Assembly (NCBI RefSeq): GCF_000203815.1
Contig: NW_004457708.1
Coordinates: forward strand, 1,054,001-1,118,000
Length of the DNA: 64,000 nt
From: Cavenderia fasciculata
Lineage: Eukaryota; Evosea; Eumycetozoa; Acytosteliales; Cavenderiaceae
Direction of reading: 5' to 3'
Shown in pieces: positions 14,991-20,439 of the stretch. The translations under genes and the position numbers were made by a program. The notes beneath the pieces are model-generated. The model did no database searches, was not told where the DNA came from, and saw only the letters and a program-made list of their open reading frames with translations. The first letter of the stretch is position 1. Every line of letters begins with the position of its first letter.

Positions 14991-16083
14991 TTCAGTTTCA
15001 TTTATTAGAGGTTATTCTAGTACTACTACAGGTAGTACTAGTAATAACACTACTTCTTCAAATAATAGTTATCAATCATCATCTACTCAATCATCATCAG
15101 AATCTAAACAACAAACACATTTTGGTTTCAAAACTATCAATGCAGAGGAAAAAGAGACAATGGTAAAGAGTGTATTTGATGCAGTTGCTTCAAAGTATGA
15201 TGTTATGAACGATGCAATGAGTTTGGGTATTCATAGATTGTGGAAGGATGAATTCATGAATACTTTAAATCCAGTACCTGGTTCTCATTTATTAGATGTT
15301 GCTGGTGGTACAGGTAAAGAAGAAGAAAAGATAAAAGAACAAAGTAAAAGATGATCTTTACTGACTTACTTTATTATCTATTTTTAGGTGATATATCATT
15401 TAGATTCATAGACAAGATTAAATCAAACCCATATTATCTACCAAACCCACATCCTGGACAATTAAGTAGTACAGCTTCACTGTCATCATCTGCCATTGTA
15501 TATGATATCAATCAAGCAATGTTGGATGAAGGTCAAAAGAGAGCTATTCAAAATGGTTATACTAAAACTTCAGGTAACTAACAAAGATAACATAACAAAG
15601 ATAACAAAAGGCATAAATATAAGCAAAAGACATTATACTTACTTGCTTACTTATTTGTTTTGTTTAGACCCATCAATTGATTTCATTCAAGGAAATAGCG
15701 AACAATTACCATTTGAAGATGAATCATTTAATTGTTATACTATATCATTTGGTATTAGAAATTGTACAAATATCGATGTCGTGTTAAAGGAAGCATATAG
15801 AGTATTGAAAAAGGGTGGTAGATTCATGTGTCTTGAATTTAGTCAGATTCCAAACCCAGCACTGCGATTTGCCTATGACCAATATTCATTCAACGTCATT
15901 CCAATCCTCGGTCAAATGATTGCCGGTGATCGCGAAAGTTACCAATACCTAGTCGAAAGTATTCGTAAATTCCCAACTCAAGATAACTTTGCCGGTATGA
16001 TTCGTCAAGCTGGTTTCAAACAAGTTACCTACAAAAACCTTTCCTTTGGTATTTGTGCAATTCATTCTGGTTGGAAACTCTAA
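14962..16083 (+). CDS. coq5: COQ5, C-methyltransferase of ubiquinone synthesis
   Basis: Three exons: 14962-15313, 15388-15573 and 15668-16083. All join in frame, giving 317 residues. The protein is a class I SAM-dependent methyltransferase of the UbiE/COQ5 family. It carries the glycine-rich SAM motif [10 protein letters not shown] split by intron 1, the [19 protein letters not shown] signature, [29 protein letters not shown] and the C-terminal [11 protein letters not shown]. It methylates the 2-polyprenyl-6-methoxy-1,4-benzoquinol intermediate in mitochondria. The start at 14962 gives [11 protein letters not shown], an Arg/Ser-rich N-terminus suited to mitochondrial import; the in-frame ATG at 14905 would add a hydrophobic stretch and is less likely. 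Residues about 12-55 are a Ser/Thr/Asn-rich low-complexity insert. Confidence 0.95.
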
Positions 16084-16145: not shown

Positions 16146-17519
16146 TTATTTGTTATTTTTTTTATGAGCAAGTTGGATTGTATTGTGAATATTTAATGTA
16201 GAAGGTTTAGAACCTATTAATTTTAATTGTACAAGAGTAGATGGGATATTAGTGTAGGTTAAATCCTTGTCAAACGATGAACCAATGGTTAGATACTTTA
16301 AACTAGGTGGTAGAGATGAATCTTCAATGGTCGATGCAAACGCAGTTCCAAGGATTAGAGTCTCTAATTGGGAATCTTTAGCAAAAGTTGTAGAGGTGAT
16401 TGGATGATCATAAGTATCTCCAACATCCAAATAGACAAGTGACAGTGGTAGAATAGTAGAGTCTAATGAATGGTTAAACAAATGTCCAAAAGTAAGATGT
16501 TGTAAACCAAATGGTAAAAGATTTTTTGAAATAGGTTGGTTGAACCATGTTCCAAAAGATAGTTGTTTTAGGTCAAATGGAAGAACTTCTATTTTACTAT
16601 CGAATCTAGACCCAAACTTTAACACTTGCAGCGCGTTGGGAAGCACGTCTACCGTAATTGATTTGTTGAAAAAGTATCCAAACGACAGATAGGTCAGAGT
16701 TGGAGGAAACAAACCTTGACCAAGTGGTCTGTTAAAGTCATAGGGCATCTCGAGGTATTCAAGATTGGGTGGAAAGTCACCAGGTACAAATTGATCACTA
16801 TAACATATAGAGTTTTGACAGAACGTCAATTTGGTGATATTCGACGCTTGATTTAACTCTGCACTGCTAAACGAGACCCTTGGTAATTTGTAACGGAGGT
16901 TGAGCGTGGTCAGAGACAGCGGGTAGAATTTGGGTGTTGGCATTTTATCATTACACTGTAGCAGCGTCAATTCCTTGACTAATGGTGGGATGACACAATC
17001 TTTGTACGAAAAGAAACTAGTGTTGAGGCGAAGATAAATGGTCGACGCTGGAATTACAAGTTCGTTGCATTGAGAATCCAACGAGAATCTAAAAGTGGTG
17101 ATGGTCGATGGATAGTCTTGTTGTTTGGTATTGATCAACACATTGCCTTTAATGGACAGTTCTTCTATATCTTGTGGGAATACGAGTGGTTCTAACTGCT
17201 CGAGTTGGGCAACCGACAAGATATCGATATCATTTCGAATGACGATTGATCGTAGACGAGGACCCATATCCTCTTGCTCTGAATAACGAGACAGTACCTT
17301 TAAAAAGTAAGAGTACCGACTGCGATGTACCGTAATCTCTCTGTAGCAATTGAGTAATGCCAACAGAGGTTTAAAGTCTGGGTCAAAATAGGCATGATCC
17401 AATTCTATCAATCTTTTCTTTCTCGTTCCTTTACATGTATCATACAATGATAGTGTATCATCGGAATCTAATAATCTATATATCTTTGCTATTACTACAT
17501 ATGATAATTTATTTATCAT
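16146..17519 (-). CDS. FNIP-repeat protein with F-box-like N-terminus
   Basis: A single-exon, 457-residue protein. The N-terminus (LSYVVIAKIYRLLDSDDTLSLYDTCK) resembles a degenerate F-box of the kind found before FNIP arrays in dictyostelids. From about residue 220 onward it carries tandem units of about 22 residues built on L..LP..L..L.FG..F(N/D).(P/S)I, for example LSFGYFFNKSI, LKFGSRFDSKI, LSFGTWFNQPI and LTFGHLFNHSL. These are FNIP repeats, a leucine-rich-repeat variant hugely expanded in social amoebae. A role as a substrate adaptor for ubiquitin ligation is inferred from the F-box-like region and is unproven. It lies in the same orientation as the next gene, with 163 bases between its start and that gene's stop. 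Confidence 0.9.
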   Translation of the reverse strand: MINKLSYVVIAKIYRLLDSDDTLSLYDTCKGTRKKRLIELDHAYFDPDFKPLLALLNCYREITVHRSRYSYFLKVLSRYSEQEDMGPRLRSIVIRNDIDILSVAQLEQLEPLVFPQDIEELSIKGNVLINTKQQDYPSTITTFRFSLDSQCNELVIPASTIYLRLNTSFFSYKDCVIPPLVKELTLLQCNDKMPTPKFYPLSLTTLNLRYKLPRVSFSSAELNQASNITKLTFCQNSICYSDQFVPGDFPPNLEYLEMPYDFNRPLGQGLFPPTLTYLSFGYFFNKSITVDVLPNALQVLKFGSRFDSKIEVLPFDLKQLSFGTWFNQPISKNLLPFGLQHLTFGHLFNHSLDSTILPLSLVYLDVGDTYDHPITSTTFAKDSQLETLILGTAFASTIEDSSLPPSLKYLTIGSSFDKDLTYTNIPSTLVQLKLIGSKPSTLNIHNTIQLAHKKNNK

Positions 17520-17682: not shown

Positions 17683-20439
17683 TTAGTTGGGATGTCTAAA
17701 TTGAGCCAAATGATCTTCATTCTTTCTATAACAGGATCCCCAATATTTACATTTTGGTTTACTTGATGATCTAGTCTTGGGTGGTTCAAAGTCTGAATCA
17801 AAATCATCATCGTCGTCATCTTGATCTTTAGGTGGAACATAATCTTCATCTGATCCTTCGTCTTCTAGATAATCATCTTCATCAATGAAATCATCGTCAT
17901 AGTCGTATTCATCTTCATCTTTCTTTTTCTTTTTGACTTGTTTTTTGGCTGGTGCTTTGGTGGTTGATTTTCTCTTTTTATCTTCCTTTTTCTCTTCCTT
18001 TGCTGCCAACTCGTTCTCTTCATCTTGTAACTTTCTAGCAAATTCTTCATCATCATCAAAATTATATTTCTTTTTTCCAATTGTTCCAAGTGAAATATTA
18101 TTATTCTTCTTTTCATTATTTTTCTTTTCATTATCATTATTTTTCTTGTTGTCACTACTACTACTATCAGTCTTGTTTGATTTACTATTATTATTATTGT
18201 TACTTGTTGTATTATTATTTGAGTTGATATTTTTAATAGTTTCAACAATTAAAGCATATTTTCTATTAGAGAAACTAATGACATCACCATCGGCCAATTG
18301 TGCAGGAGTATCAAATGGTACGGTTGAATAATCGTCTGATCCATTTTCCTTGATGTATAAATGGTTGATACCCAACTTTACAATTTCGATAATAGTTCGA
18401 GCACCAACAATCTTTGCAGTAATGAGTGCTTGTCTTCTACTAATAGCTAGATCCATAATTCCTAAAACAGTTCTACCCAATTCTGTTTCTACTCCATCAT
18501 ATAATGGAATCTTTGTACCATCTTCTTTAATTAAATTTGCTACTATTAATTTATCACCACCATCATTACTACTATGACTATTGTTTGAAGTTGTAGTTGT
18601 AGTAGTCGTTGATGTAGTTGATGGAGATGAAGTTTGTTGTTGACTATTACTTTTTGTTGATTTTGATTCTAATTTAATAGTTGATTGTTCTTCTTCTTGA
18701 TTTTCATCTACATGATCGTCTTCATCTTCTTCATCGTCATCGTCATGTGAAGGAGGTAACCAATCGATCAAAGAATTATCCATACTCTTTAAACTATCAT
18801 TAATCTGTTTTAAAACATTTGAACTGAGGAATGTTTCTAAAATTGGGTTTGGTGTTTCCAATATTTCAATTGGTATAACTCCCATTGATTCAGATTGTAT
18901 AGTTTCAATCTATAGATTAAAAATAAATTAATTAATTAAATTGATCTATTTTATATTTGTTGCTTTTCTTCATTTTCATTTCTTACAATTGATTTCCAAT
19001 TATGAGAATGTTTACCACCAATTACAAAAACAACACCTTTGACATCTTCAGCATCGATTTTAGTTGAAAAGATGGTACGGATGATTTCTTCAATGACAGG
19101 ACGCCAGAATTGTTCGTGTGGCTTTTTGTCATCTTCGTCGTCTTCGGTGACTGTGAGTTGAGTGTTGAGCCACAAGACACCTTGTCTGGCGACGACCTTG
19201 AACCACTCACGCGCACTGTCTGTTGGTAGATCAACCTCTCTGAGGACACCTCTGACAGTGTCAATATCGTCGTCCTTTGTAATGACACCCTTGTACATCA
19301 GAGCAGCACGTACAAGGTTAATGACAGTCTTGCGTCCATCCAATTTCCATGAATTTGATTGTTGATCACAAAATGCATATCCACTTGCGCTAGATCGCTT
19401 TGCAATTGGATTCTGTCCTAAAAATACAACTTTACAATTGATTGGTGACCCAACTGCATTCAATGATGAAAATACATATCTATTATCTGGTAAATATTTT
19501 GAATTTCTATTCTTTCCTAAAAATTCATTTAATCCAAGCTAGAAAAGAAAAGAAATAATTATTAATTATTATTATTATTATTCTATTTCTTATTCTTATT
19601 CTATTTTACACATACAGTATCAGCACACTTTTCTCCACCTAATCCTTGTAACCAAGATTTTGATAAAACAGATTTAATGTCCAAGTTTTGTGGAGTCAAT
19701 GAAGGTTTGGTTGGTTTATGATCATCCTTGTCCTTTGGTGGTGTAGATTTCTTTTTGGAAGAAGTATGATGATTATTATCATCAGAGTCATCAAATAATT
19801 CATCGTCATCGAAATTGTAAGTCTTTTTAACAGTAGCTTTTGATGATGATGATGATGATGATTTCTTATCACCACTAGTACTATCACCCTTCTTTTTAGA
19901 ATTTGTTGCTGCAAACTTCTTTGGTCCTTTCTTTTTTAGTAGACCATTTTTTTGTTCTAAACAATAAACAATAAATGTTGGTTAGATTAATCTTTCTCTT
20001 ATATGTTTTGATACGACATATACGTCAACAACTTACTATAAAGTAGATCTTTAATTTCAGCTTGATCTTTCTTTTCCAATTCTTCAAAACCTTCTAAATC
20101 TTCAATATCTTCTGCTCTTTTTGATGTCTTTCTTGCTCTACCTTGTGCCTATAGAAAGAAGAATAAGATGAAGATAGTTATACATATAAATATATATATG
20201 TTAGTAAAAGATATTCTTTTTCTTTTCTTTTTCTTTTTCCTTTCATTGTTTTTGCATACTCTAAAGAAACATTCAGAATGAAAGTAATCAGTTGCAACAC
20301 CATCGTCATCGAATCTATTCGATGGATACATCTTTGCTATTCTAACCGTATCCTTTGGTATATTTGCTTTGCAATCGGTCGACTTGCAAGATGATCTTGC
20401 AGTCTTTGCATATTCTACTCTAAATGTTCTATCTGCCAT
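17683..20439 (-). CDS. PARP-type zinc finger / UDG-like / FHA / PBZ fusion protein
   Basis: Five exons: 20439-20260, 20148-20037, 19956-19616, 19538-18987 and 18909-17683, giving 803 residues. Residues about 5-60 form a PARP-type zinc finger (C18-x4-C23...H54-x2-C57, with IPKD). Residues about 215-440 align with family-1 uracil-DNA glycosylase: KVVFLGQNP, GYAF, RQGVLWLNTQLTV, VVFVIGG and a final IDW. Asp of the GQDPYH motif is Asn254, Tyr is Ile, and the HPSP His is Thr414. The uracil-pocket Phe (267) and Asn (336) remain. Residues about 511-616 are an FHA domain (LGR, SRRQ). Acidic/basic tails lead to a terminal PBZ finger, C782-x5-C788-x6-H795-x5-H801, which in its family binds poly(ADP-ribose). 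The protein is probably nuclear and joins DNA-break, phosphoprotein and PAR binding to a base-excision fold that may be inactive. Confidence 0.9.

Follow-up and report, generated by a model that had tools for sequence, protein, structure and literature searches.

Gene and domain organization at the locus

The window is the whole stretch of 64,000 nucleotides of Cavenderia fasciculata DNA that was analysed. A gene on its minus strand encodes, in a spliced model with four GT-AG introns (111, 80, 77, and 77 nt), a protein in which a PARP-type zinc finger (zf-PARP) is followed by an altered uracil-DNA glycosylase (UDG) domain, an FHA-like part, and a PBZ finger. Its features are as follows:

17683..20439, minus strand: whole gene, zf-PARP / altered UDG / FHA-like / PBZ (spliced model, 5 exons, 803 aa)
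20260..20439, minus strand: exon 1 (spliced model)
20037..20148, minus strand: exon 2 (spliced model)
19616..19956, minus strand: exon 3 (spliced model)
18987..19538, minus strand: exon 4, bulk of the altered UDG domain including GQNPIA and Asn336 (spliced model)
17683..18909, minus strand: exon 5, end of the altered UDG domain with TPNP, FHA-like part, charged linkers, PBZ, and stop codon
20044..20415, minus strand: zf-PARP finger, residues 9-95, split by intron 1 (Pfam E 4.9e-21)
18775..19660, minus strand: altered UDG domain, about residues 197-440, split by introns 3 and 4
18238..18558, minus strand: probable FHA domain, residues 513-619 (FHA_2 E 0.0013, below the curated cut-off)
17686..17760, minus strand: PBZ, residues 779-803, Cys2His2 ligands present (Pfam E 5.4e-11)

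The best PDB matches of the zf-PARP finger by phmmer were PARP1 and DNA ligase III, and the PBZ scored 42.7 bits, over its Pfam cut-off of 22.7. In the whole protein, Pfam recognized the UDG part (residues 241-419, E 3.6e-05) with 24.3 bits, exactly the curated cut-off, and the domain searched alone scored 28.4 bits. Its top matches among PDB sequences were uracil-DNA glycosylases (best E 5.8e-07), and the first codons of exon 5 align with the C-terminal part of the altered bacterial UDG domains described below. Searched with the whole protein, Pfam listed no FHA domain at E<=1. The excised region matched FHA_2, which we take to be the PNKP kind, with 19.1 bits vs. a cut-off of 23.1, and FHA (E 0.055) with 14.3 bits vs. 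20.7; a search of PDB sequences gave no match at E<=1. Because the Pfam scores are below cut-off and no PDB sequence matched, we grade a PNKP-type FHA domain as probable, not proven. The first-pass annotation had proposed this same order of PARP finger, UDG, FHA, and PBZ. Pfam and the splicing bear it out, but the FHA domain, despite the sub-cut-off FHA_2 match, is weaker than claimed there. No ART (ADP-ribosyltransferase) or macro domain in the protein was matched by Pfam. Elsewhere in the window, we noted by eye a 457-aa open frame with repeated FNIP-like leucine-rich units (16146-17519, minus strand) and a frame resembling a UbiE/COQ5-type methyltransferase (15496-16083, plus strand).

Active-site residues and family placement

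The residues of the UDG pocket were located by alignment:

19410..19412, minus strand: Asn254 (GQNPIA), replaces the water-activating Asp (alignments)
19404..19406, minus strand: Ile256, replaces the thymine-excluding Tyr (alignment)
19371..19373, minus strand: Phe267, uracil-stacking Phe retained (alignment)
19164..19166, minus strand: Asn336 (LNTQLTV), uracil-binding Asn retained (alignment)
18853..18855, minus strand: Thr414 (TPNP), replaces the catalytic His (alignments)
18841..18843, minus strand: Ile418, aligned with the intercalating (wedge) Leu (alignment)

Profile-profile alignment by hhalign against six UNG sequences placed GQNPIA on GQDPYH and TPNP on HPSP (Prob 99.7, E 1.1e-25). 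The same placement was obtained by MAFFT in an alignment of 97 proteins, comprising the C. fasciculata domain, 84 bacterial relatives (the best 80 of 191 plus four plasmid proteins, see below), and 12 other UNG-like proteins. Both alignments thus agree with the earlier assignments of Asp to Asn254, His to Thr414, and Tyr to Ile, with Phe267 and Asn336 kept, and the numbering of N254, F267, N336, and T414 is reproduced by the spliced 803-aa model.

With family 1 UNGs such as human UNG and E. coli Ung, the domain shares the overall alignment, the Gln of motif 1, the stacking Phe, and the uracil-binding Asn, and the model of a bacterial relative suggests that it may have their fold as well. It differs from them by GQNPIA in place of GQDPYH with its catalytic Asp, by TPNP in place of HPSP with its catalytic His, and by the changes of Tyr to Ile and wedge Leu to Ile; the Pro-rich loop could not be recognized by eye. 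Five NCBIfam ung equivalog models matched, all below cut-off (63.8/162, 56.2/185.75, 53.4/223, 35.1/237, and 28.9/143 bits). Motifs 1 and 2 led us to reject a canonical active UNG for this gene. The family 2 motif 1 of TDG/MUG is GINPG. Like these enzymes, the domain has an Asn in motif 1 and no motif 2 His, but it reads GQNPI and its overall similarity is to family 1. With the actinobacterial proteins described below it shares GQNP and full-length similarity, and a tree joined it with them at 93/85 (not starred), the branches being long and other long rows being included. AlphaFold predicted the isolated exon 4 poorly (pTM 0.52), and this prediction was set aside; in the model of a bacterial relative residues 69-93, directly after the GQNP motif, were also weak. 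The predicted family-1-like UNG fold of the C. fasciculata domain rests on the alignment together with the model of this bacterial relative.

A UDG-family search of the C. fasciculata genome (31.0 Mb, 21 contigs) returned four genes including this one. The second (L003) has intact motifs GQDPYHG and HPSPLS, and the third (L004), spread over two exons, has intact GQDPYF and HPSPLS. In the fourth (L005:1174-2904, minus strand; C8:695592-696056), the motifs read GSDPYHG, with Gln changed to Ser, and SHPFSF; it encodes a long Gln/Asn-rich protein and is possibly another altered UDG. Since UNGs with intact motifs exist elsewhere in the genome, uracil excision need not rely on the gene described here. 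Six PBZ and three zf-PARP places were found in the genome, this gene being counted in both, and an XRCC1 N-terminal domain (XRCC1_N) is encoded as well; the protein carrying it is a possible partner of the FHA domain.

The domain might nevertheless be a slow but real glycosylase, in which the water is held in place by Asn254, as happens in TDG/MUG or SMUG1, without need of a motif 2 His, and in which the pocket, widened by Ile256, accepts thymine-like or 5-modified pyrimidines for removal in certain settings. The first-pass annotation had named a TDG/MUG-like role of the Asn as its own alternative. SMUG1 also has an Asn at the position of the motif 1 Asp. The uracil-binding Asn and the stacking Phe are retained, the motif 1 Asn of family 2 is proposed to be catalytic in enzymes that still cut without the motif 2 His (PMC5387724), and UNG1 Y147A excises thymine (PMC11162499). 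However, in the UNG frame the combination D145N/H268N is called inactive (PMC8070346) or dead (PMC11162499). Moreover, the remaining motifs are UNG-like (GQ-P, LN..LT) and not GINPG, and UNGs with intact motifs are already encoded elsewhere in this genome. We consider a slow glycosylase unlikely.

Actinobacterial relatives with macro and ART domains

A tblastn search of plasmid records with the altered UDG domain gave 13 records. The four best proteins, from two Streptomyces, Embleya, and Nonomuraea, showed 33.2-36.6% identity over the whole domain (E 5e-30 to 2e-33), and as judged from these sequences the similarity to actinobacterial proteins is beyond chance. An annotated plasmid protein of 801 residues carries macro and ART domains flanking the UDG-like part. 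In the four plasmid proteins, Pfam gave no match to UDG at E<=1 and assigned the ARTs to the arginine (protein) type (PF01129). We then scanned the genome contigs of 84,980 species and obtained 217 pattern matches, of which 191 were confirmed as relatives and the best 80 were examined. All of these 80 are actinobacteria by record title, and together with the four plasmid proteins they form the bacterial sample of 84. One of the two scan patterns contained GQNP, so that the count of this motif is biased.

An ART was found in the same open frame in 83 of the 84 loci (best 80 of 191 plus four), the exception (L035) ending at a contig end. BLAST detected a macro match likewise in 83 of the 84, in the same frame in 28 and in another frame of the locus in 55; the sole locus without it (L052) starts near a contig end. 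A stricter macro signature was present in 69 loci of this sample vs. the 83 by BLAST. Flanking frames common to more than 4 of the 80 loci overlie the macro/UDG-ART genes (ten most shared frames, five query loci). A profile survey without motif seeding yielded 13 carriers in 394 genomes at E<=1e-20, all within one actinobacterial class. Twelve of them were read, and all have GQNPYPR, the His, and an ART; the thirteenth (L108) is the place of a locus already within the 84 (L039). Viral contigs contained 31 stretches matching a pattern, none of which was confirmed, and a search of phages for the domain gave 45 records with a best E of 3e-8. By these sequence searches, the closest prokaryotic relatives found are the actinobacterial macro-UDG-ART proteins. 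In a search of non-subscription literature, no paper on a UDG-macro-ART fusion was found. Two papers that mention 'uracil dna glycosylase' as well as 'macro domain' concern PARP1 and ALC1 by title, and neither uracil nor UDG nor DNA glycosylase is mentioned in PMC9503650.

Comparison of the pockets in the 97-protein alignment, in which the bacterial sample is the best 80 of 191 plus four, showed Asn at the Asp position in C. fasciculata and 84/84 bacterial proteins, and Asp in 12/12 UNG-like proteins. The uracil-binding Asn336 is identical in 97/97. The Tyr position is Ile in C. fasciculata and Tyr in 84/84 bacterial and 12/12 UNG-like proteins; the His position is Thr in C. fasciculata and His in 84/84 and 11/12, respectively. 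At the stacking position, C. fasciculata and 12/12 UNG-like proteins have Phe, and 84/84 bacterial proteins have Met; at the wedge position, C. fasciculata has Ile, 84/84 bacterial proteins have Ala, and the others are mixed. A UNG-like protein from a Variovorax plasmid (L020:3848-4711) reads GQDPYP and has LPHP replacing HPSP, which looks like another natural case of a lost catalytic His.

By sequence, the parts of the classic pocket that are gone thus differ between the two groups, and the only altered residue they have in common is the Asn. Earlier, the substitutions had been treated as one set. The Asn does recur in all 84 bacterial proteins (best 80 of 191 plus four), but Thr414 and Ile256 occur in none of them and, on this alignment, are particular to the C. 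fasciculata protein among the relatives examined. The change from Asp to Asn marks a UDG subgroup that, judged by the domains accompanying it, is tied to ADP-ribose enzymes. Because the bacterial relatives have the same Asn, a single sequencing error at codon 254 is unlikely. The ligands of the two groups need not be the same, since the bacterial domains keep Tyr and His, whereas neither the stacking Phe nor the wedge Leu is left in them.

Such losses would also fit a domain that has ceased to contact flipped bases and instead has a structural role or binds proteins, as poxvirus D4 does in its processivity factor; for vaccinia UDG, a role independent of catalysis has been published (PMC1936997). 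Against this stand the invariant Asn336 and the retention of GQNP in 84/84 bacterial proteins (best 80 of 191 plus four), which suggest a pocket under selection, and we regard a purely structural role as distinctly improbable. A pocket that reads an ADP-ribosylated or otherwise modified DNA base would suit both the company of ART and macro domains and the opening that Ile256 would create in C. fasciculata. However, the four bacterial ARTs scanned belong to the arginine (protein) type, and the R (LWRGV), S (WWGVSSCTS), and ExE motifs are present in 80, 78, and 76 of the 84 ARTs, respectively (best 80 of 191 plus four). We give this last reading very little credence.

A putative DNA-damage-type promoter upstream of the bacterial genes

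The bacterial loci were scanned for a RecA-NDp-like motif, allowing up to 2 mismatches in its 14 fixed bases. Such a site precedes the macro or UDG-ART gene in 74 of the 84 loci (best 80 of 191 plus four), although these are not independent events because the loci come from related species, mostly Streptomyces. It stands on the sense strand 150-1500 nt upstream of the GQNP codon in 63 of the 84, the 868,477 bases of the loci holding no further plus-strand site, and 11 of the remaining 21 have a minus-strand site 305-518 nt upstream. The macro gene is co-oriented in 59 of the 63 sense-site loci, where the site stands before it, and oppositely oriented in the 11 loci with a minus-strand site. 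In the other 4 of the 63, the macro gene is opposite and the site faces the UDG-ART gene; in three of these four, a further site points towards the macro gene. Of the 84 loci, 10 yielded no such site; the macro gene is divergent in 8 of them, and the other 2 are truncated. Across both strands of all 84 loci, the reversed motif used as a control turned up a single time. With 3 mismatches allowed on both strands, the count was 77/84 upstream vs. 3/84 downstream, the full downstream stretch being available in 79 loci, and a LexA-like pattern (1 mismatch) was found in 41 upstream vs. 7 downstream stretches.

In one Streptomyces genome (G006), the RecA-NDp-like motif occurred at 17 sites with up to 1 mismatch, and the reversed control at none. 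One site each precedes recA, ung, and the macro-UDG-ART gene. Another Streptomyces macrodomain gene is reported to have a RecA-NDp promoter upstream, in a section whose heading calls the gene UV-inducible (PMC5087735). Taken together, the macro/UDG-ART genes look as if they were under DNA-damage control. Other sites of the same genome were inspected by eye. One (L138, C1:6195377-6195399) precedes a protein whose start resembles WGR, a PARP-associated domain, and sites near both chromosome ends (L132, L133, L145, and L146) precede apparent cas3- and cas5-type CRISPR genes.

A putative damage-reading module and its relation to known systems

We lean, with little more than even confidence, towards the C. 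fasciculata protein being a PAR-linked repair scaffold whose altered UDG domain reads damaged DNA rather than cutting it efficiently. The PARP-type finger and the UDG domain would bind DNA at nicks, abasic sites, or flipped-out pyrimidines, the PBZ would hold the protein on poly(ADP-ribose) made nearby, and the FHA domain would bring in a phosphorylated protein, for instance XRCC1. Replacement of the Asp by Asn and of the His by Thr is expected to abolish base excision or slow it greatly; a pyrimidine could still be held by Phe267 and Asn336, and Ile256 would make room in the pocket for 5-substituted bases. The first-pass annotation had already suggested a non-cutting reader linked to PAR, which is supported in part: the nearest relatives found are fused to or adjoin ART and macro domains, the genome holds UNGs with intact motifs, and the double change resembles UNG D145N/H268N, described as inactive (PMC8070346, PMC11162499). 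The strongest argument for a reader serving ADP-ribose systems is the bacterial context of ART, macro domain, and apparent damage-type promoter, which was identified without recourse to the finger or the PBZ. This context suggests a damage-reading module that may be used with ADP-ribose signals in both amoeba and bacteria.

More tentatively, and with more doubt than conviction, one may think of a portable lesion-reading module dedicated to the ADP-ribosylation machinery, combined with a macro eraser and an ART writer in bacteria and with the PARP finger, FHA, and PBZ in dictyostelids. In actinobacteria, the damage-induced macro/UDG/ART set would mark proteins at damaged DNA, similar to the PARP response; in dictyostelids, the module joined to PARP finger, FHA, and PBZ would read both damage and PAR. 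If true, streptomycetes would possess an ADP-ribosyltransferase that is so far unstudied and probably inducible by DNA damage, together with a reader and an eraser of its own, and nature would have made much the same double change, in a PAR pathway, as that of an engineered UNG uracil sensor.

The actinobacterial proteins resemble the C. fasciculata domain in their identity (33-37% for the four plasmid proteins), GQNP, and the link to ADP-ribose, whereas Tyr and His are retained in them, the stacking Phe is replaced by Met and the wedge residue by Ala, and they carry ART and macro domains where C. fasciculata has zf-PARP, FHA, and PBZ. A PBZ-bearing 'Ung' of Dictyostelium is already known in print, among PBZ proteins of this organism described as repair or damage-response proteins (PMC5087659, citing Ahel 2008 for the PBZ family). 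It is likewise a UDG-family protein with a PBZ in a dictyostelid and probably the orthologue of the protein described here; the passage concerned is without mention of catalytic-residue loss, finger, or FHA. A search of non-subscription literature combining UDG, Dictyostelium, and PBZ gave no match. In the engineered sensor for U-DNA, which is based on human UNG D145N/H268N (PMC8070346), both catalytic positions are replaced as well, with Asn at the Asp; it differs in being man-made, in having Asn at the His position where C. fasciculata has Thr, and in its unchanged Tyr. DNA ligase III shares the PARP-type finger, as seen in the PDB match. To our knowledge, neither it nor APLF carries a UDG domain. 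APLF and APL share with the C. fasciculata protein the combination of FHA and PBZ (PMC5087659).
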